Part shown: piece by piece, positions 16-13,587 of the stretch
Layout: each line of letters opens with the position of its first letter
Position numbering within the stretch: position 1 is the first letter of the stretch
Translations under genes and position numbers: made by a program
Notes under the pieces: generated by a model
Seen by the model: the letters and a program-made list of their open reading frames with translations, nothing else
Database searches by the model: none
What the model was told of the DNA's origin: nothing
IMG/VR virus record: IMGVR_UViG_3300050821_005864
Location: 1 to 20,599 of that record
DNA: 20,599 nucleotides
From: a virus
Strand: one strand, 5' to 3'

Positions 16-44
16 TTGACAGCACACCCGCGCCGTGTTAAAAT
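16..44 (+). promoter_or_regulatory. Sigma70-type promoter P1 with extended -10
   Basis: The -35 box TTGACA is at 16-21, the spacer is exactly 17 bp, and the -10 box TAAAAT is at 39-44. A TG at 36-37 forms an extended -10. Transcription should start near 51 and drive the PEP-CTERM gene, leaving a leader of about 20 nt with AGGAG at 62-66. The same architecture recurs at 814-842 and 4109-4137. Confidence 0.8.
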
Positions 45-72
45 GGCGTGTAAAATTACACAGGAGAGCCAC

Positions 73-726
73 GTGAATAAATGGTTAATGACTACGGCAC
101 TGTTATTAGCAATGGGAACCGTGCCTGCTCACGCGACGTTGCAGATCGAAGTGTTCGACAACGGTTCGCTGATCGACAACGTAACGGGAATCACCACGGG
201 CGCAGCTTCGCTCACCGCCAACGACGCGAACTTCGCTAACATCACGATCAACGCGCAAGGTTCGCCCATCCTACCCAACGCAGATCTATCAAGCGTCACG
301 CTCGACGCCACTGCGGCGGTGGGCTTCACCGGTTCGCACACGCTGACAGTGGACATCCTGCAAAGCGCGATCTTCGGGACCGGAAACACCCTCTCGACCT
401 TTACCGTCAACGGTCTGACCAATGATCCTGGCCCGACCACCGAATCAACGTTCGCCGATGGCGGAGTGCTGGCCTCGCACACCTTCCCGGTGGCGTTGCT
501 CGACGGTTCGTTCGGGCCAGTGTCGGCAGAGACCGGTGCGTTCACCTCTGACGAGACCCAGTTCGCCGTGGATTTCACCGCGCCACGGCAATCATTCGGC
601 GGTTCTATTCAGTTGACCACTGGCGTTCCGGAACCGTCAACTTGGGCAATGCTGCTTGCAGGGTTCGGGTTAATTGGCGCGTTCGGCCTGTTTCGCAACC
701 GCAGAGCCAACTTTCGCCTGATTTGA
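73..726 (+). CDS. PEP-CTERM sorting-signal secreted protein carried by the phage
   Basis: This 217-aa exported protein has both hallmarks of exosortase substrates. The GTG at 73 is chosen because AGGAG lies 6 nt upstream and because translation from it gives a clean signal peptide: Lys near the N-terminus, a hydrophobic core, and an AHA/TLQ cleavage site after residue 21. Any earlier start would lie inside promoter P1. The C-terminus has VPEPSTW from residue 185, a Gly/Leu/Phe-rich membrane segment, and a basic RNRR stretch, which is the canonical PEP-CTERM tripartite signal. In known systems exosortase removes this tail and the protein is released or anchored at the envelope. The 160-residue middle is Thr/Ser/Asn-rich and looks beta-rich; I recognise no domain in it. 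It has its own promoter and a strong hairpin downstream, so it behaves like a lysogenic-conversion or moron gene. No exosortase is in the window, so sorting would depend on the host. Confidence 0.85.
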   Translation: MNKWLMTTALLLAMGTVPAHATLQIEVFDNGSLIDNVTGITTGAASLTANDANFANITINAQGSPILPNADLSSVTLDATAAVGFTGSHTLTVDILQSAIFGTGNTLSTFTVNGLTNDPGPTTESTFADGGVLASHTFPVALLDGSFGPVSAETGAFTSDETQFAVDFTAPRQSFGGSIQLTTGVPEPSTWAMLLAGFGLIGAFGLFRNRRANFRLI

Positions 727-2328: not shown

Positions 2329-4101
2329 ATGTTCCATGACATCGATCCACAACGTGCCATAAATATGGTGTCGCAATCCACAGTTATCGCATTTGACTGC
2401 GAAACGACGGGGTTAACGGTTCATGATCGAGTATGTGGATGGGTGTTTACCGACGACTATGCAAGCATCTACGTACCCACTCGTCACCTGGGTGGAGGCA
2501 ATATTCTCAATGCGGGCGAATTCGAGAGAGTACTTGCTTTGTCTTTTCGAGATCGATCCAGGCGCGGATTTCGGACGGTCGGGCATAATCTTGGTTTCGA
2601 CCTTCGCATGGCGGGAAAACACGGAGTCTTCCCCGAATTCCCCCTGGAAGACACGATGATCAATGAGGCGCTTATCAGTGACATTACTAGGGGATATGGA
2701 CTCGACGACTGTTGCACTCGTCATGGCGTTACTGCTAAGCTTGGTGACGCTGTTTACCGTGCCATTGCTAGTAGATTTGGTGGAATGCCCGACCGTAAAG
2801 CGATGGCTAATTTTCACCGAATGGCAGGCGATGATCCTGACGTTGTTGATTATGCTACGGGTGATGGGATATCCACTCTAGAGCTGTGGAAAGTTCAGCA
2901 AAAGATGCTCGACGATCACGAATTACGGGTTCCCTGGAAGTTGGAGTGCCAACTTATTCACAGGGTGGCGCGTCTTCACCGACGCGGAATGAGAGTGGAT
3001 GGAGAATATGGAGAGCAACTTCGAGGACCGACCGGAATTCTTGAGACGAAAATTGCCACGCTTCAATCGGCCTTTCCATATGGTTTTAACACCAACTCGC
3101 CAAAAGACGTTGAAGGTTTATACCGTCGTGCGGGATTCGGGGACGACGACTTCGCTCGCACCGAGAATGGGGCCGTTTCATTTACCGAAGGGTGGTTAAA
3201 GAATAACGAGATTGGTGAGCGAATTATAGCGATCCGTCAGCTAAAGAAGGCTCGAGATTCGTTTGTAACGCCGCTCGTGGAGACGCATAATGTTAAGGGA
3301 CGAGTTCATCCTGTACTCAATCAATCTAAATCTGACGACTACGGTGCGATCGGAGCGCGATTTAGCTGTTCTGAGCCGAATCTTCAAGCGTTCCCAAAAC
3401 GAAATAAAGAAGTCGGGAAAGTCGTCCGACGACTCATCATTGCTGATGACGGTTTCGAGATTCAGGAAGGCGACGCCAAGCAGCAAGAGCCCAGATTGTT
3501 TGCATATTTCTCAGACGATGAGCGATTACTTCAGGGATACCGCACCGGAACTATGGACATCCACGACATCACTTCCGCTGGTCTGGGATTGCACCGAGAT
3601 ATCGCTAAACGAATGGCCATGGGAATCCTGACTGGCATGTCAGCTAAGGCACTGTCGGGGCACATGGGTTGGCCGTACCAACGAGCGCTCGATTACCACA
3701 ACGCATTTTTAAAACAGCAATTCCCCGCCATCCGCAAATTTCAGAAGGCTGCGATGGGGGTATTTCTATCAAGCGGATATGTTAAGTCAATCACTGGCAG
3801 GAAAGCTCGTCTCGACGATAAGGAATACGCTTATCGCGCGGTGAGCCGAATCATTCAGAACTCTGGCGGCGATCTCATGAAAACTACGCTGCTCAGGGCG
3901 TGCGAATATGAAGAGGCATATCCACAAGTTCAGCTGCTAATGACCGTACACGATTCACTGATATGGCAACGTGAAATAGGATTCGACACCAGCGAATTGA
4001 TAAAAGTGTGCGAGGCAGTCCCGAATGAATTCAACCTGGGTATTCCTATCCCGTACGAAATAGGAACAGGAGTCAATTGGGCGGAAGCAAGCTACGGATA
4101 A
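2329..4101 (+). CDS. dpoZ: Family-A DNA polymerase with 3'-5' exonuclease, DpoZ candidate
   Basis: This 590-aa replicative polymerase lacks the 5'-nuclease domain of E. coli Pol I. The exonuclease domain (about 15-195) is intact: ExoI D23-E25 in DCET, ExoII GHNLGFD with N87 and D91, ExoIII Y175-D179. The polymerase domain has GARFSCSEPNLQAFP (about 343-356), motif A with D382 and E387 (GDAKQQE), motif B R423-x3-K427, and motif C H541-D542. Motif B is odd: positions matching E. coli Phe762 and Tyr766 are Met431 and Thr435. The ATG at 2329 is chosen because GGAG lies 6 nt upstream. Earlier in-frame starts would lie within the leader hairpins. Several phages that carry PurZ encode such a PolA-type enzyme, DpoZ, which favours 2-aminoadenine. 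That assignment here rests on the purZ and mazZ neighbours, while the polymerase call itself is firm. Confidence 0.9.
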   Translation: MFHDIDPQRAINMVSQSTVIAFDCETTGLTVHDRVCGWVFTDDYASIYVPTRHLGGGNILNAGEFERVLALSFRDRSRRGFRTVGHNLGFDLRMAGKHGVFPEFPLEDTMINEALISDITRGYGLDDCCTRHGVTAKLGDAVYRAIASRFGGMPDRKAMANFHRMAGDDPDVVDYATGDGISTLELWKVQQKMLDDHELRVPWKLECQLIHRVARLHRRGMRVDGEYGEQLRGPTGILETKIATLQSAFPYGFNTNSPKDVEGLYRRAGFGDDDFARTENGAVSFTEGWLKNNEIGERIIAIRQLKKARDSFVTPLVETHNVKGRVHPVLNQSKSDDYGAIGARFSCSEPNLQAFPKRNKEVGKVVRRLIIADDGFEIQEGDAKQQEPRLFAYFSDDERLLQGYRTGTMDIHDITSAGLGLHRDIAKRMAMGILTGMSAKALSGHMGWPYQRALDYHNAFLKQQFPAIRKFQKAAMGVFLSSGYVKSITGRKARLDDKEYAYRAVSRIIQNSGGDLMKTTLLRACEYEEAYPQVQLLMTVHDSLIWQREIGFDTSELIKVCEAVPNEFNLGIPIPYEIGTGVNWAEASYG

Positions 4102-4108
4102 GCAGGAC

Positions 4109-4137
4109 TTGACGACGCGTGCACGCTGTGTTAAAAT
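4109..4137 (+). promoter_or_regulatory. Sigma70-type promoter P3 ahead of the purZ cluster
   Basis: The -35 box TTGACG is at 4109-4114, the spacer is 17 bp, and the -10 box TAAAAT is at 4132-4137 with TG at 4129-4130. The stretch GTGTTAAAATGG is identical to that in P1. It lies 7 nt after the polymerase stop and would fire the nuclease-purZ-mazZ-helicase run separately from the polymerase. The expected start of transcription (about 4143-4146) almost coincides with the first start codon. Confidence 0.75.
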
Positions 4138-4145
4138 GGGAGACG

Positions 4146-4358
4146 ATGATGGCGGAGCGAATAGGTGACGAATTACATGAGTTCGAGGCTCGAGTGGAAC
4201 ATTCCACACAGAAGGCTTGGCTAGTGATTGACACCATGTCAAATAATCAAGCCTGGCTTCCCAAGTCGATCGGGCGCATCGTTCGCGACGTCGATCCAGA
4301 AGGGTTAACTATATTCGCTGCCCCCGATTGGTGGTTGAAGAAAAATAGGTTCATCTGA
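4146..4358 (+). CDS. Small unassigned ORF, first gene behind P3
   Basis: This predicted 70-aa protein has no family I recognise. It has an acidic, helical N-terminal half (AERIGDELHEFEARVEHS) and a C-terminus with PDWWLKKNRF. There is no membrane segment or signal peptide. Two adjacent ATGs (4146, 4149) can start it. GGGAG at 4138-4142 is well spaced for the second, but it would be missing from a message beginning at P3. Translation may therefore use read-through transcript from the polymerase gene or start leaderless. Its stop overlaps the ATG of the next gene by one base, which supports real translation and coupling. Confidence 0.6.
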   Translation: MMAERIGDELHEFEARVEHSTQKAWLVIDTMSNNQAWLPKSIGRIVRDVDPEGLTIFAAPDWWLKKNRFI

Positions 4359-4552
4359 TGGTATACGATAATCCGAACCACGCTCCAAAAGCCTATTCGA
4401 CGAAATACTACAAATGCGATGCATGTGAGCGCCTGCACGTTGTGCTGGTAGATAAAGACGATAAATACATTGCAACTGCAGTCATCAGTCGCGACGTGCT
4501 AGAACACATGTTCAAGGTGATTGACGATGATCCAACTATTCTGACGCAATGA
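4358..4552 (+). CDS. Small unassigned protein with a CxxC pair, 64 aa
   Basis: I do not recognise this protein. It has one CxxC pair (C20, C23 in YYKCDACERLH), a beta-type centre (LHVVLVDKDDKYIATAVIS) and a helical end. A single CxxC is not enough for a lone zinc ribbon unless the protein dimerises or uses the nearby His. The ATG overlaps the upstream stop (TGATG), and its own TGA overlaps the next ATG in an ATGA junction, so it looks translationally coupled on both sides within the P3 operon. That tight packing is the main evidence that it is a gene. Confidence 0.6.
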   Translation: MVYDNPNHAPKAYSTKYYKCDACERLHVVLVDKDDKYIATAVISRDVLEHMFKVIDDDPTILTQ

Positions 4553-4941
4553 CCGAAGAGAGCCAGCTCAAGACAGAGCTTGTGAAGCAATGTAAAGCTA
4601 TGGGTTGGTACGCTCGCCGAATAGAGGATAAATTCGCTGTTGGTATTCTGGATATTCACATCGTTCCCACAAACTGTCAGACACTATTCGTAGAGGCCAA
4701 GGTGACTGATGGGCTGGTATTCCGGCCGACCGAGCGGCAATTCATCGAGGGACGACGCATTATCGAGGCAAGAGGATTCGCGCAGCCAGTGTTAATCGGT
4801 TGGCGACAAGACATAATGCACATCGCGGATTGGGCCAGGGAAGCGTATATAACGCGCGCGTTCAAACAACCATCGGGCATGAACTATGCCCAAACAATCG
4901 GAGAGTGGCTTCATGGGAAACAATACAATAACCAGTCTTAG
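4549..4941 (+). CDS. VRR-NUC / PD-(D/E)xK-like nuclease
   Basis: This 130-aa protein resembles small stand-alone VRR-NUC nucleases of phages. The N-terminal helix has E10 (QLKTELVKQCK). Then come RRIEDKFAVGILDI with D35, and LFVEAKV with E49-x-K51, the D...ExK core of PD-(D/E)xK enzymes. The polar RPTERQF and the later beta strand VLIGW fit the fold. Family members are thought to cut structured DNA or act in replication and repair. A role in recombination intermediates, host DNA degradation or genome maturation is equally possible here. The start overlaps the previous stop in ATGA form. The end overlaps the next gene by 29 nt. Fold assignment comes from motif reading only; the exact substrate is unknown. 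Confidence 0.75.
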   Translation: MTEESQLKTELVKQCKAMGWYARRIEDKFAVGILDIHIVPTNCQTLFVEAKVTDGLVFRPTERQFIEGRRIIEARGFAQPVLIGWRQDIMHIADWAREAYITRAFKQPSGMNYAQTIGEWLHGKQYNNQS

Positions 4942-5203
4942 CAGCATCGAAATGAGCGTAAAAGAATTGGTGGCGCGCAGAGCCTTGACTCATGGTAGTT
5001 GGGCCGAAACGGCAAGAGTAGCCCAGAATATTAAGAACGCGATGGGTAGTTCTCCAAATTGGCCGAACTTAGCAGACAGCCAGAAAGAAGGGCTAGACAT
5101 GATTGCGCAAAAGATAGCACGTATCCTGACTGGGAACATGAATGCTGATGAGCATTGGGAAGACATAGCTGGTTACATCGAGTTGATAAGGCGGGGACTG
5201 TGA
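4913..5203 (+). CDS. DUF6378-like all-alpha protein directly before purZ
   Basis: This 96-aa helical protein has the pattern RRALTHGSW...Q, then QKEGLDMIAQKIARILTG, then DEHWEDIAGYIEL. The pattern matches my memory of the DUF6378 family found in many phages (THG motif, LDMIA.KIARIL, HW.DIAGY). Its function is not established. The start at 4913 has GGAG at 4900-4903, 9 nt upstream, and lies within the end of the nuclease gene. Its stop overlaps the purZ GTG start (GTGA), so the two proteins are probably made in coupled fashion. Conserved His, Asp and Glu in a small helical domain next to nucleotide-metabolism genes make a nucleotide-handling role conceivable, but no motif proves it. Confidence 0.65.
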   Translation: MGNNTITSLSSIEMSVKELVARRALTHGSWAETARVAQNIKNAMGSSPNWPNLADSQKEGLDMIAQKIARILTGNMNADEHWEDIAGYIELIRRGL

Positions 5204-6258
5204 GCAGCCTATTCTCGTCAACTGGCCTCCACGTAATGGCGGGAGGCCAATATGGCTCCGAGGGTAAGGGTCTGCTCGCCGCTTGGCTCGCGGAACGCGC
5301 TGTCGAGGAGAACATTCCATTCAACGGCGTCATTACAAGCGCGGGGCCGAATAGCGGACACACCAGCTATTTCGGCGATCGTAAAATTGTGCTGAAACAG
5401 CTGCCTACCTTCGCAGTTCACATGAGCCTACGAGGGTGGCACATTCCAGTCTACTTTTCGGCGGGATCGGTGATCGACGCTGAAATACTGGTATCGGAAC
5501 ACAACGCATTCCAAGACATCCCCATCTATATTCACCCATGCGCGACGGTGGTTCTCGAAAAGGATAGGGTGGCCGAACATGATGCCTCTGGTAGCATATT
5601 CGCTGTTGCTGGAACCCGCAGTGGAACCGGTGCGGCTATTGCTCGCAAAGTCCGTCGGGATATTTCCGCTATTTATTACAACTATTCTCAGCGCCTGTTT
5701 CCCTATTATGAAAGTATTGTTGATCTGGATTATCATCCGTATTTTATGGAGATATCACAAGGATTTTCACTCGGATTGAACGAGGCTAAATTCTACCCGA
5801 ACGTAACCAGCCGCGAATGTACGTTCATGCAGGGGATGGCTGATTCCCGCCTCCCGCCAACGTATTACAAACGAGGCTATCTGGCGTTCCGAACTTATCC
5901 GATCCGAGTCGGGAATTCCGATGGGTTCAGCAGCGGAGATTGGTATCAGGATCAACAGGAAACCACCTGGGATGCGATAGGCGTTCCCGTCGAATATACG
6001 ACCGTAACTAAGCGGGTGCGCCGTGTCGCCACGTTCAGCTGGAACCAGTTCAAAGATTCGGTGACAGCGAATGCGCCGACGCACGTGTTCCTGAACTATA
6101 TGAACTACCTCCATACCAAAGAGCAGTTAGAGTTCTACGAGAAACACCGACAGGTAAGGAATGTTTCCCTTGGAGAAAATTACAAGTTTATCTTCGGGCA
6201 TGGGCCTCGAGTGGAGCAGGTTAACGATCAGGATTCCTCCGGAGTTGAGGGCATATGA
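5200..6258 (+). CDS. purZ: PurZ, phage adenylosuccinate synthetase homologue (2-aminoadenine pathway)
   Basis: This 352-aa PurA homologue is shorter than bacterial PurA (about 430 aa), as expected for phage PurZ. The P-loop is GGQYGSEGKG (residues 15-24). Ser20 replaces the catalytic Asp of PurA (GDEGKG), a change I recall being reported as diagnostic of PurZ. His54 in NSGHT matches the second catalytic residue, and GTRSGTGAAIARKVRRD matches the PurA GRGIGPAY region. The PurA TKLD motif that reads guanine of GTP is replaced by NYMN (299-302), consistent with ATP or dATP as phosphate donor. Known PurZ joins dGMP and aspartate to give N6-succino-2-amino-dAMP, which host PurB and kinases turn into dZTP. 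The GTG start overlaps the upstream stop, with AAGGCGGGG at 5188-5196. An ATG at 5236 is the alternative. Confidence 0.92.
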   Translation: MSSLFSSTGLHVMAGGQYGSEGKGLLAAWLAERAVEENIPFNGVITSAGPNSGHTSYFGDRKIVLKQLPTFAVHMSLRGWHIPVYFSAGSVIDAEILVSEHNAFQDIPIYIHPCATVVLEKDRVAEHDASGSIFAVAGTRSGTGAAIARKVRRDISAIYYNYSQRLFPYYESIVDLDYHPYFMEISQGFSLGLNEAKFYPNVTSRECTFMQGMADSRLPPTYYKRGYLAFRTYPIRVGNSDGFSSGDWYQDQQETTWDAIGVPVEYTTVTKRVRRVATFSWNQFKDSVTANAPTHVFLNYMNYLHTKEQLEFYEKHRQVRNVSLGENYKFIFGHGPRVEQVNDQDSSGVEGI

Positions 6259-6496
6259 GCACGACATGCGGCGCATGTTCGATGCGATGGTATACAAGCT
6301 TCGCAAGAATGCCCATAAAGGAAAGTGGGAACACGGACGCGTCGTCGAATATATGAATCATCTCCGTGAAGAAGTAGTGGAACTATCCAATGCCATTGAG
6401 GAAGGGAAGAACACCGTGGAAATAATCCTCGAAGCTGCCGACGTAGCGAATATGGCGCTCATTCTGTGTGCAATGGCGATCGACGGGAGGGACTAA
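6200..6496 (+). CDS. mazZ: MazG-like nucleotide pyrophosphohydrolase, MazZ candidate
   Basis: This 98-aa all-alpha protein carries the MazG metal-binding signature: E57-E58-x2-E61 in REEVVEL and, 16 residues later, E78-x2-D81 in EAADVAN. The preceding VYKLRKNAHKGKW is typical of small phage MazG-like enzymes. In 2-aminoadenine phages the partner MazZ splits dGTP to dGMP, which feeds PurZ, and its position straight after purZ fits that job. Start choice is uncertain. ATG 6200 retains RIPPELRAYEHDMRRMFDAM, which looks like genuine family sequence, but it overlaps purZ by 59 nt and lacks a good ribosome-binding site. ATG 6266 avoids the overlap but trims that part. A general house-cleaning (d)NTP pyrophosphatase is the alternative function. 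The stop overlaps the next ATG (TAATG). Confidence 0.85.
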   Translation: MGLEWSRLTIRIPPELRAYEHDMRRMFDAMVYKLRKNAHKGKWEHGRVVEYMNHLREEVVELSNAIEEGKNTVEIILEAADVANMALILCAMAIDGRD

Positions 6497-6711
6497 TGGA
6501 TGATAAACAGATCGTAGATCTCGCTGTGGAAACAGCCAAGATGATGGTTAGAGCAGCGGTGCAAACGATTGGCGATGTTGATGATGAAACACGCAACCTT
6601 ACACTATCAATGGCTTTGGGGATGGTTATGGTTACCTTCAAATACATCGATAAGGATATTCCTCACACAGCCGCAGCCACTTATTTGAGGCAACATCATG
6701 ATCAGGTATAA
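6496..6711 (+). CDS. Small helical protein after mazZ, unassigned, 71 aa
   Basis: I recognise no family. The protein looks wholly helical, with many Met residues (TLSMALGMVMVTFKYID), a polar start and HH near the end. The hydrophobic middle could be a buried core helix rather than a membrane segment because it is short and flanked by charges. The ATG overlaps the mazZ stop, and GGGAGGG at 6485-6491 gives a good ribosome-binding site. The sequence around that start (GGAGGGACTAATGGA) recurs before the zinc-ribbon gene at 6732. Confidence 0.6.
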   Translation: MDDKQIVDLAVETAKMMVRAAVQTIGDVDDETRNLTLSMALGMVMVTFKYIDKDIPHTAAATYLRQHHDQV

Positions 6712-6941
6712 GCTGCTGACTGGAGGGACTAATGGAGCCCAATGAATTTGACTGTATAGATTGCCATGTTCATGTATATTCATGGTTCGGCAGAACTACA
6801 GATCGCTGCATGGTTTGCCAATGGATACACAACAGTCCGGAATTAACTGAGGAAGAGATTAATGAGATACGATTCCTTACAGCAACCCCGCTATTCAAAG
6901 TAGAGGGGCCTGATAATGATCAGATATAAGCTGCTAACTGG
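6698..6941 (+). repeat. Direct repeat pair (26 bp, 2 mismatches) flanking the zinc-ribbon gene
   Basis: Positions 6698-6723 and 6916-6941 match at 24 of 26 bases and start 218 bp apart. Both read as ATG followed by codons for IRYKLLTGG. In the second copy this is the start of the 42-aa gene at 6916. In the first it runs into a stop after 15 codons. The repeat therefore looks like a duplicated gene start left when the zinc-ribbon gene was inserted or duplicated between them. Confidence 0.8.
6732..6929 (+). CDS. Small zinc-ribbon protein, 65 aa
   Basis: Two CxxC knuckles, CIDC near residue 8 and CMVC near residue 27, flank a short loop (HVHVYSWFGRTTDR) and make a likely structural zinc-binding ribbon. 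The remaining 35 residues are acidic and helical (ELTEEEINEIRF). Similar short proteins with DCIDC...C..C are common hypothetical proteins in phages and proteobacteria. Their function is unknown, with nucleic-acid or protein contact the usual guess. GGAGG at 6721-6725 lies 6 nt before the ATG. The gene is bracketed by the 26-bp direct repeat, and its end overlaps the start of the gene at 6916 by 14 nt. Confidence 0.7.
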   Translation: MEPNEFDCIDCHVHVYSWFGRTTDRCMVCQWIHNSPELTEEEINEIRFLTATPLFKVEGPDNDQI

Positions 6942-7044
6942 TGGTTTGCTCTGCCAGCAAGATAAGTGGGGAATATGGTGGGTCGTAGCTATATTCGCTC
7001 GCGGTAGACTGTGGTGGGTTACTGAAAAGGTGCCAGTTTCATGA
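6916..7044 (+). CDS. Tiny Trp-rich protein before the helicase, 42 aa
   Basis: This ORF encodes 42 residues starting MIRYKLLTGG, with five Trp residues (WGIWWVVAIFARG, RLWWVTEK) and a basic bias. The central WWVVAIFA stretch could touch a membrane but is too short for a confident transmembrane call. It is supported by exact packing: its start overlaps the zinc-ribbon gene, and its TGA overlaps the helicase ATG in an ATGA junction. Its first nine codons are duplicated at 6698. The function is unknown. Confidence 0.5.
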   Translation: MIRYKLLTGGLLCQQDKWGIWWVVAIFARGRLWWVTEKVPVS

Positions 7045-8444
7045 GTCAGCTTGATCCAGTTCAGGTCGCCGCGCTTGAAGCCTCCAAGGGTAGGCACGGG
7101 TTTGGATTTTGGATGGAGATGGGCCTCGGCAAGACATTAACGGCGTTAACTGAGTTCCAGCAGGGGGTTGCGAATGGCACAACGCGAATGGTTGCAGTTT
7201 GTCCGAACACGTTCAAAGGCGGATGGGCCGAAGAAGTTAACAAACACGGGATGGACGTTGAAACTCACGTCTTCCAGAGCGGTACATGGGCTAGTGACGC
7301 GTTCTTTAGACAGCGCTACGAGCGGCCTCCTCTGCTCATTGTTAATTACGAAGCGATCAGAAGCCCGGCCATACACGATCGTATTCTCGATTGGATGTCG
7401 AGAAAACCCTGCTATATCGCATTTGATGAATCCATCCAGATTAAAACTCATGACGCTCTACAGACCAAAGCGTCTATATCCCTTTCGCGAGCAGCAGCGG
7501 TTCGACGCATCCTTACAGGAAAGCCCACAACTCAAGGTCCTCACGATTTATGGGCTCAGATGCGAGCTATCGGCCAACTGGAGGGACGCAACTTTTACGC
7601 GTTCCGTGGTATGTTCTGTAGGATGGGCGGATTTAAAAATAAACAAGTCATCGGTTCCCAGAACGAGGATATGTTAGCCCAACTCATCGAGCCCCACGTG
7701 TTCCGCGCCACCAAAGAAGATTGGCTGTTCAGCATTCCCAAAGTGTACACCATCCGTGAATACGAGATGACGCAGGAACAGCGCGCTCAATATCGGAGCA
7801 TGGAACGCGAGTTCGTGCTATGGCTGAATGACGAAGACGTCGTTACGGTGGACGCAGCCATCACGAAATACATGAAGCTAGTTCAAATCCAATGCGGATT
7901 CATCATCGACACCGACAACGAATCAAAAGTGAGTGTTATCTGTGAACCCAGGAACAATCCGCGTGTTCGTGCATTGCTGAATATTCTTACCGACGAGGTA
8001 GCTGGCAAGGCCATAGTCGTATACATTCACCGATATACGTTCCAAATCTTGAGTGAAGTATTAAAGGAGTACAACCCGGCTCGAATCACAGGGGGCATGA
8101 AACCAGATGAAATCGACGAACAAGTCCACAAATTCAATGACGACCCAAGTTGTCGTCTCATTCTGGTACAAGAGCGAGCAGGGAAATATGGGCTCACGCT
8201 TCTTGGGGACGCTAGTCCAGGAAATAGATGCGCCACTACCATCTTCTTTGAAAATTCCTACAGCCTCGACGATCGCGCCCAAATCGAGGATAGAAACCAT
8301 AGGCGCGGGCAAGATGCCAATTCGGTCACCTATATTGACTTATGCGGAACCTCGATGGACCGGAATGTCATCCACGCTTTGCAACGCAAAGAAAGTATAT
8401 TCAAGGCTGTATTCAGCCATATTCGGAAGGCAATTCCAGCATGA
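7041..8444 (+). CDS. SNF2-like superfamily-2 helicase/ATPase
   Basis: This 467-aa protein is a compact SNF2-type DNA helicase or translocase of the kind found in phage replication modules. Walker A is MEMGLGKT (K31), motif Ia is VCPNTFKGGW, and motif II is DESI (D129-E130), where most SNF2 proteins have DEAH/DEGH. Motif III is ILTGKPTTQGPHDLWAQ. In the second RecA lobe, IVVYIHRYTFQILSEVL matches motif IV, GLTLLGDA matches motif V, and QIEDRNHRRGQ (about 414-424) is motif VI with its arginine fingers. Likely work is remodelling forks or recombination intermediates, or displacing proteins from DNA. The ATG overlaps the upstream stop, and GGTG at 7030-7033 provides a modest ribosome-binding site. 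Length is normal for phage SNF2-like proteins and no domain appears missing. Confidence 0.88.
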   Translation: MSQLDPVQVAALEASKGRHGFGFWMEMGLGKTLTALTEFQQGVANGTTRMVAVCPNTFKGGWAEEVNKHGMDVETHVFQSGTWASDAFFRQRYERPPLLIVNYEAIRSPAIHDRILDWMSRKPCYIAFDESIQIKTHDALQTKASISLSRAAAVRRILTGKPTTQGPHDLWAQMRAIGQLEGRNFYAFRGMFCRMGGFKNKQVIGSQNEDMLAQLIEPHVFRATKEDWLFSIPKVYTIREYEMTQEQRAQYRSMEREFVLWLNDEDVVTVDAAITKYMKLVQIQCGFIIDTDNESKVSVICEPRNNPRVRALLNILTDEVAGKAIVVYIHRYTFQILSEVLKEYNPARITGGMKPDEIDEQVHKFNDDPSCRLILVQERAGKYGLTLLGDASPGNRCATTIFFENSYSLDDRAQIEDRNHRRGQDANSVTYIDLCGTSMDRNVIHALQRKESIFKAVFSHIRKAIPA

Positions 8445-12369: not shown

Positions 12370-13190
12370 TATTTCTGTCCACCTAACGCGGCGAAGAATG
12401 GATTGTTCGCGCCAAATGAGACGCCGGAGGAACCGCCGCCCAAGCCTGGCGCAGCTTGCTGGCCGATTCCGCCTTGTTGCCAGTTCTTAATAAAGTTGTT
12501 CAGGATTCCCTGGCCTTGAGGGCCGCCCCCAGCTTGCGATTGAGCAGCGGTGAATGGTGCGCCGGGGGTAACTGGATTTCCAGGATTTGCTAACAAGCTC
12601 AGCGCGTTCTGGTATGAATTCGGCTGACTGGGTTGCATCTGAGGCGCAGCTTGTTGCGCTCCCTGTTGCATCTGGTTGAAGGCATCGTAGCCTGCACCTT
12701 GGAGATACGCGCCCATTCCTGGGCCGCCGCCCTTAGGATTATTGCCGGAGGCGACGAAACTGTCGGACGGTGTTGCCGCCACGCCAGCTTGATACTCTTG
12801 CATGGCAGCTTGAGCCGGACCCCGTTGCTGTGGCGTTAGCGCCTGCCATTGCTGGCTATTCAAACCGCCGAATGGCTGCGCCACCGCCGTGTTCTGACCT
12901 TGCGGGACTTGAATGCCGGCGAACGGATTGCTTGACGGCGCAGCAGAAGACCCGCCCCCGATCCCAGGCGAGCTATTCAGCGTCATTCCCGGCTGAGAAG
13001 CAGGGAGCTGAATAGGCTGACCAGTTCCTGCGTTTACTGGTGCCCCGGCATATTGAGTTGGCCAACCAGGCATCTGACCTGGACCGCCGAATGAGGTATA
13101 CGGATTCGACCATTGGCCCGGATCGGGGTATTGGCCCGCCTGAGCGTAGTTATACTGCGGGAATAGGCTAGCGTTCGATCCGTCAACCAT
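12369..13190 (-). CDS. Pro/Gly/Gln-rich low-complexity virion-cluster protein, 273 aa
   Basis: Composition is strongly biased to Gly, Pro, Gln, Ala and Asn along the whole length (QYPDPGQWSNPYTSFGGPG, LPASQPGMTLNSSPGIGGG). No domain, membrane segment or enzyme motif is recognisable. It is probably intrinsically disordered. The start ATG overlaps the upstream stop by 8 nt, and the end overlaps the 80-aa gene. A PGMTLNS phrase near residue 88 echoes PGTTLNS in the neighbouring 134-aa protein, which hints that the two share ancestry. The late-operon position suggests a virion or assembly role. Confidence 0.6.
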   Translation of the reverse strand: MVDGSNASLFPQYNYAQAGQYPDPGQWSNPYTSFGGPGQMPGWPTQYAGAPVNAGTGQPIQLPASQPGMTLNSSPGIGGGSSAAPSSNPFAGIQVPQGQNTAVAQPFGGLNSQQWQALTPQQRGPAQAAMQEYQAGVAATPSDSFVASGNNPKGGGPGMGAYLQGAGYDAFNQMQQGAQQAAPQMQPSQPNSYQNALSLLANPGNPVTPGAPFTAAQSQAGGGPQGQGILNNFIKNWQQGGIGQQAAPGLGGGSSGVSFGANNPFFAALGGQK

Positions 13191-13587
13191 AGCTTATCCC
13201 CTGTGTATCTCCGAATGGGCCGCCGCCTCCCGGCGAACCTGGCCGTTGTTGCTGCATCAACATCTGCAGCATCTGTGGGTTCATCTGATGAGGCTGTAAA
13301 TTAGGAACCTGTTGTGGAGACATCTGCGCGGGCGGAGGTGATAACGCCCCGGCAAGCTGGCCGATCCCCTTACTAATCCCGCCCATATTCATATTATTCC
13401 CCGTCAGCGGGTTCTGAATTCCGCCAGCTTGGGCTGGTTGCGGCACATTCTGCTGCGGAGGCCCCATTTGCGGATTCGGTGCACCCATCGAATTAAGAGT
13501 GGTTCCTGGAGGCTGAGAAAATGGGGTCGTAGGGGCTTGCTGCCCGCCCATCATAGCCTGAATGCGCGCAAGAAGTTGAGGATCCAT
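13183..13587 (-). CDS. Pro/Gln/Met-rich low-complexity protein, 134 aa
   Basis: The sequence is dominated by Pro, Gln, Gly, Met and Asn (PPAQMSPQQVPNLQPHQMNP), with only a short ordered-looking N-terminus (MDPQLLARIQAMMGG). No family is recognised. It resembles the C-terminal half of the lysozyme encoded just upstream, which has the same GIPG/QQQQ/MQ style. It may be a split-off or duplicated tail of that protein. GGGAT lies 7 nt before the ATG and covers the stop of the lysozyme gene. A disordered structural or scaffolding-type role is possible but unproven. Confidence 0.6.
   Translation of the reverse strand: MDPQLLARIQAMMGGQQAPTTPFSQPPGTTLNSMGAPNPQMGPPQQNVPQPAQAGGIQNPLTGNNMNMGGISKGIGQLAGALSPPPAQMSPQQVPNLQPHQMNPQMLQMLMQQQRPGSPGGGGPFGDTQGISYG

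Follow-up and report, generated by a model that had tools for sequence, protein, structure and literature searches.

The 20,599-base stretch analyzed here (IMG/VR virus record IMGVR_UViG_3300050821_005864; referred to as the window) is a fragment of a phage genome, and it raises the question of whether this phage replicates with 2-aminoadenine (Z) and, if so, how adenine is kept out. An earlier note had predicted a Z module from a polymerase with an exonuclease, a PurA homologue with GSEGKG, and a MazG-like protein, and all three do lie on the plus strand between 2329 and 6496. The polymerase (2329 to 4101), PurZ (5200 to 6258), and MazZ-2-like (6200 to 6496) genes form a single operon in which the purZ start overlaps the stop codon of the DUF6378-like gene before it and the mazZ start lies inside the 3′ end of purZ. 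We consider it likely that dZTP is made and used for replication by this phage by means of MazZ, PurZ, host steps, and its own PolA, with adenine kept out, perhaps incompletely, without DatZ. The identification as a Z phage is well supported; the presence of Z in virion DNA is what we infer from it.

The PurA homologue (352 amino acids, GTG start) resembles N6-succino-2-amino-deoxyadenylate synthetase, i.e., PurZ. It scored 201.3 bits (E = 1.9e-59) against the NCBIfam PurZ model NF038379, with the next model, a PurA, at 108.7 bits, and it matched the PHROG family "2-aminooxy adenylosuccinate synthetase" (2.9e-48). It is 49% identical to the PurZ of Ochrobactrum phage vB_OspP_OH (referred to as OH). 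Ser20 in GSEGKG (codon at 5257 to 5259) replaces the catalytic Asp13 of PurA; the same serine occurs in 11 of 11 aligned phage PurZ proteins, and Escherichia coli PurA has the aspartate. In a tree of 51 rows, the window, OH, and their IMG/VR clade fall with phiVC8, S-2L, and other phage PurZ proteins in a branch of 35 rows (support, 100/99), while E. coli PurA and PurZ0 fall outside it. A long-branched PurA-like row from Flavobacterium phage MaF61 and three cellular rows are also inside this branch. The phylogenetic check proposed in the earlier note thus groups the protein among phage PurZ, apart from E. coli PurA, and together with the serine and the model scores it upholds the choice of PurZ over PurA. 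An ordinary PurA serving as a metabolic helper gene would fit the Pfam PF00709 match and the score under the PurZ cut-off, but it is hardly credible given the serine, the PurZ model far above the PurA models, the tree position, and the linkage to MazZ and the polymerase.

The MazG-like protein (plus strand, ATG at 6200, or 6161, to 6496) carries the motifs EEVVE and EAAD, and its acidic residues E71, E74, E91, and D94 are invariant in 10 sequences. These residues and the position after purZ are the marks of MazZ-2 and bear out the proposed MazZ partner as a putative MazZ-2-like dGTP pyrophosphohydrolase, with the activity assigned by homology. The protein is 43% identical to the OH pyrophosphohydrolase and matches the ZP6 MazG weakly (36.8%; E = 4e-3). 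To place these genes in context, we used viral scans with short exact peptide patterns, in which 80 of 84 loci were taken in one scan and 80 of 195 in another. The PurZ-seeded set consists of 80 IMG/VR loci (of 84) plus the window and OH (82 loci) and is redundant, with 54 distinct polymerase C termini; it has contigs in common with the polymerase-seeded and PrimPol-seeded sets. MazZ adjoins PurZ in 71 of the 76 PurZ-seeded loci with room for it.

The polymerase (plus strand, ATG start, 590 amino acids) is a DpoZ-like family A enzyme with a 3′-5′ exonuclease, as indicated by the DpoZ_1 model, an AlphaFold2 model, and a tree. The exonuclease motifs DCET, HNLGFD, and YATGD are present, and the HD dyad of motif C is kept. 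NCBIfam NF038380 (DpoZ_1) gave 249.5 bits (6.2e-74), with the next model at 174.8, and the protein is 56% identical to the OH polymerase. The best PDB match of the AlphaFold2 model (predicted local distance difference test score, 89) was phiVC8 DpoZ (7pbk; template modeling score, 0.83). At the gate position, that of Klenow Tyr766 and phiVC8 DpoZ Phe459, the window has Thr435 (codon ACT, 3631 to 3633, plus strand, by alignment) and OH has Ser. This residue is Phe in 8 of 8 phiVC8-like and 2 of 2 Wayne-like polymerases and Tyr in E. coli and in 4 of 4 polymerases from Z-less phages. The L455 and G548 positions are Met and Ser in the window polymerase, and in sequence alignment the two phiVC8-type insertions (helix O and the finger tip, between O1 and P) are missing from the window, G2, and OH. 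The window clade, the phiVC8-like enzymes, and the Wayne-like enzymes form separate branches of the polymerase tree (100/100, 100/99, and 100/100, respectively). The DpoZ-type label given earlier therefore does not hold in the sense of either described type: with Thr instead of Phe at the gate, neither of these two insertions, and a branch of its own, the polymerase appears from its sequence to be a third DpoZ-like active-site type, outside the phiVC8-like and Wayne-like ones. We found no description of a Thr- or Ser-gate DpoZ in the open literature on PurZ/MazZ/DpoZ, on DatZ with S-2L, or on a 2-aminoadenine steric gate, and the words Ochrobactrum and steric are absent from the main text of PMC12884076.

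The link between this polymerase and PurZ extends across the clade. The PurZ proteins of the IMG/VR loci show 42 to 97% identity, and a polymerase open reading frame (ORF) was found in 73 of the 82 PurZ-seeded loci. The gate residue is visible in 69 of these 73 polymerases (68 Thr and 1 Ser, the latter in OH); 61 polymerase-seeded loci gave 59 Thr, 1 Ser, and 1 Asn. Seeding with PrimPol, which is independent of PurZ, yielded 54 loci, of which 7 had older identifiers and 47 with new identifiers were examined, mostly contigs also present in the other sets. A polymerase was present in 32 of the 47, and among the 30 with enough downstream sequence, 29 had both PurZ and Thr and 1 had neither, which supports a tie between polymerase and PurZ. 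When the Thr-type O helix was searched for as a nucleotide pattern, 17 contigs matched, with PurZ in 16 and the 17th cut at the polymerase. One Thr-gate contig (L201, also G037) has no PurZ in its 2.75 kb of downstream sequence, and spacings of up to ∼3.1 kb occur elsewhere; five polymerase-seeded contigs without PurZ (G053, G054, G055, G057, and G058) end at most 1.5 kb from the polymerase.

The PrimPol-seeded contig with neither PurZ nor Thr is contrasted here with the rest of the clade as G038 (44,213 bases; its ends overlap by 127 bases, which closes it). G038 and the clade have PrimPol, helicase, portal, terminase, and DUF6378 in common, and PurZ, MazZ, and DatZ were not found in this closed genome. 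Its polymerase has Asn at the Thr gate position, and a search for relatives of that polymerase matched only itself. Because G038 is nested next to the window's subclade (98/100), we take it that the module was probably lost here and that Asn stands in place of the Thr of the other members.

DatZ, the dATP-removing enzyme of the Z-cluster, is often missing from the clade. All 7 of the 7 named Z phages gave a match to the DatZ family PF13023 (above the curated cut-off in 6, under it in OH); none of the 7 records from the window clade did. DatZ was not found in the window, in G001, or in G002; the window and G001 are fragments, and G002 (44.8 kb), which aligns along both, closes on itself. The predicted Z module therefore stands for PurZ, the MazZ-2-like enzyme, and the PurZ-linked polymerase, but the third part of the Z-cluster, DatZ, which the earlier note did not mention, was not found. 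A wider DatZ profile matched 12 of 33 records. Seventeen of the 33 are at least 42 kb long; 6 of them had DatZ and 11 did not, and 5 of these 11 near-complete relatives are closed by end overlaps of 123 to 127 bases. In the PurZ-seeded set, DatZ is present in 22 of the 55 loci with at least 2.5 kb downstream. Mapped on a quick PurZ tree, in which two long rows join, the DatZ state changes 8 times (19.7 when shuffled), and at least 4 changes are forced by well-supported branches.

DatZ is present in each of the five loci where MazZ went undetected. In these loci (L060, L063, L067, L077, and L078, the last two apparently from one phage), DatZ directly follows PurZ and no MazZ was seen in between, which is the opposite of what the window shows. 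As DatZ is missing with MazZ present and MazZ goes undetected with DatZ present, the Z triad is modular in the window clade, in both directions. In the available text of PMC8342488, the datZ-mazZ-purZ triad is co-conserved in the ten genomes compared, and according to that of PMC12884076, DatZ is "mostly" present in PurZ phages and the DpoZ enzymes fall into two groups.

Displacement of DatZ elsewhere in the genome was ruled out for the near-complete relatives, as whole-contig profile and PF12917 searches were negative. A single replacement gene was also ruled out: no family occurs in all 11 DatZ-negative genomes while being absent from the 7 DatZ-positive ones. The latter result also counts against an unrecognized protein, e.g., the DUF6378-like one or either of the small ORFs after mazZ, substituting for DatZ. 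The DUF6378-like protein is present in 81 of 82 PurZ-seeded loci and is predicted to be helical, like MazG-type enzymes, but its model has no PDB fold match at an E value of 0.001 and the gene is retained in the Z-less G038, and we regard such a substitution as unlikely. It is still less probable that the module is decaying, with DatZ lost first and PurZ and MazZ next. G038, which has none of the three, and the 8 state changes on the quick tree would agree with decay; however, 33 DatZ-less PurZ-seeded loci (47 to 85% identical to the window, the window itself apart) have a near-full-length PurZ match with MazZ adjoining, and the DatZ-less state is old and widespread for decay.

A more serious contender, although not our favored one, is that the DatZ-less members make dZTP but hold a mixed A/Z genome because dATP is not removed. 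In accordance with this, no YfbR-like, dUTPase, or DUF5664 gene was found in the window, G001, the 11 near-complete DatZ-less relatives, or G038 (control phages were positive), and phiVC8 DpoZ alone inserts 1 to 6 adenines at physiological dATP (PMC8599892). On the other hand, PurZ itself can consume dATP, since the S-2L enzyme can use it as a phosphate donor, according to the available text of PMC8342488. We rank adenine exclusion by the polymerase and PurZ first and the mixed genome second.

The genes, catalytic residues, and gene order are read directly from the window, and the proposed chemistry would follow that of characterized homologues (the available text of PMC8342488 and PMC12884076). 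MazZ would convert dGTP to dGMP, PurZ would join dGMP with aspartate to give dSMP, and host enzymes would take dSMP through dZMP to dZTP, after which the phage PolA would copy Z opposite T. Thr in place of the O-helix Tyr may give a more open site that helps the polymerase handle Z:T pairs, with their extra amino group in the minor groove, and the proofreading exonuclease would take out A. Without DatZ, adenine would be excluded by the selectivity of the polymerase together with the use of dATP by PurZ, or else only incompletely. The proposed open site has a parallel in Klenow Y766S, for which the available text of PMC3121766 reports a more open active site and lower fidelity. We only tentatively suggest, and rather doubt, that this amounts to a third, independently derived form of adenine exclusion, in which an open-gate (Thr) family A polymerase chooses Z over A without a dATP-removing enzyme and the gate residue is kept only as long as the genome has PurZ, G038 having Asn instead.

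Several points weigh against these readings. All three proteins score below curated cut-offs: PurZ with 201.3 of 300 bits for NF038379, the polymerase with 249.5 of 500 for NF038380, and the MazG-like protein with 15.8 of 22 for MazG and 18.4 of 21.3 for PRA-PH. Members with DatZ and members without it both have the Thr gate, which is therefore not a DatZ replacement. The lowered fidelity of Klenow Y766S is not equal to Z selectivity, and some adenine is still inserted by phiVC8 DpoZ. As G038 is one event, the link between gate residue and PurZ is not statistically shown.

The plus strand of the window encodes, in order, a PEP-CTERM protein, a Pam3 gp33-like and gp34-like pair, the polymerase, a small nuclease, the DUF6378-like protein, PurZ, the MazG-like protein, two small ORFs, and an SNF2 helicase; additional genes lie on the minus strand. 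The small nuclease homologue (4549 to 4941; PHROG endonuclease, 8e-6) has a homologue in G002, and OH has a putative nuclease at the same place. The DUF6378-like small helical protein (4886 to 5203), whose stop overlaps the purZ start, is not Z specific, being present in G038. Its OH counterpart by alignment with the clade's DUF6378-like proteins, gp31 (L002:16029-16529), is annotated as a phosphofructokinase, a label also given by phrog_474. The first small ORF (6466 to 6711) sits where DatZ does in OH and has a homologue in G002; the second (6732 to 6929) contains Cys and lies in the mazZ-helicase interval, and neither has a Pfam family. The SNF2-type helicase (7041 to 8444) comes after the module in OH and G002 as well.

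The PEP-CTERM gene had been taken as a pointer to a host group without a described Z phage. The gene is inside phage sequence in G001 (97% DNA identity), with a diverged copy in G002, which rules out the reading of the window as a piece of host DNA. Being phage borne, the gene names the host only indirectly, and OH already carries the module. Ochrobactrum, the host of OH, is an alphaproteobacterium. PEP-CTERM-like C-terminal signals occur in phage proteins of the window (16 to 726; VPEPSTWAML), G002 (5333 to 5923; TPELSTWAML), G010 (31330 to 32250), and G021 (12681 to 13334); a phage protein addressed to the host exosortase would be unusual.

PurZ-like genes also occur in other settings. In many bacterial genomes, a PurZ-like gene with Ser at the Asp13 position shares an operon with genes for a dCTP deaminase-like protein and a fusion of an RNase H-like exonuclease and a kinase (L300 to L375; e.g., L306:6083-9997 and L329:5885-10146). 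Homologues of both neighbors are adjacent in 42 of 80 loci and at least one is in 59 of 80; in Nostoc (L329), a restriction-subunit-like gene, identified by eye, adjoins the operon. This operon may be a defense or nucleotide control system, although two of the bacterial PurZ-like proteins had no match in PADLOC. In two proteobacterial metagenome-assembled genomes (L296:7282-11689, ∼1.8 Mb, and L384:7831-12177, ∼1.6 Mb), PurZ groups with the window clade (99/99). It is flanked on one side by a gene resembling cytidylate kinase and on the other by a Ham1-like NTP pyrophosphatase, assigned by Pfam in L296, after which comes a gene resembling rpsA; the first and last of these neighbors were identified by eye. 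These possibly incomplete assemblies yielded no second member of the PurA family, DatZ is not clearly present, and their PolA keeps the normal Tyr. Bacillus phage vB_BpsS-140 (L377) has a phage-type PurZ with no family A polymerase, MazZ, or DatZ named within 6 kb on either side, where several neighbors are hypothetical.

Among known systems, OH is the nearest named, cultured relative (Wolominvirus). It shares with the window the order polymerase, nuclease, DUF6378, PurZ, MazZ, helicase (the helicases are 52% identical), and PrimPol, portal, and terminase with G002, but it has DatZ and has Ser instead of Thr at the gate. The OH paper labels the gene adenylosuccinate synthase, and its available text lacks the words aminoadenine and diaminopurine. 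The phiVC8-like Z phages (phiVC8, ZP6, SH-Ab 15497, and PMBT28) resemble the window in having PurZ, MazZ-2 or DUF550, and a proofreading PolA, but their DpoZ has Phe at the gate and the helix O and finger-tip insertions; phiVC8, ZP6, and SH-Ab have DatZ (PF13023), with which the PMBT28 hydrolase aligns. In the S-2L Z-cluster (datZ-mazZ-purZ), a MazG-type enzyme likewise comes after PurZ, but S-2L has DatZ and MazZ-1 and no PolA (available text of PMC8342488). The PurZ0 phages Vulture and Htur have a PurZ-type enzyme and PolA, but both have dUTPase, Vulture has DUF5664, and their polymerases are far apart from the window's in the tree. The clade makes it testable whether dATP removal is needed at all, its closed PurZ-less sister G038 is a natural control for what in the polymerase decides Z versus A, and it offers new enzymes for work on Z-containing DNA. 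In the published account there are two DpoZ types with Tyr changed to Phe, and DatZ is the usual partner; in the window group, the first of these rules does not hold and the second frequently fails, as seen in dozens of contigs from uncultured phages.

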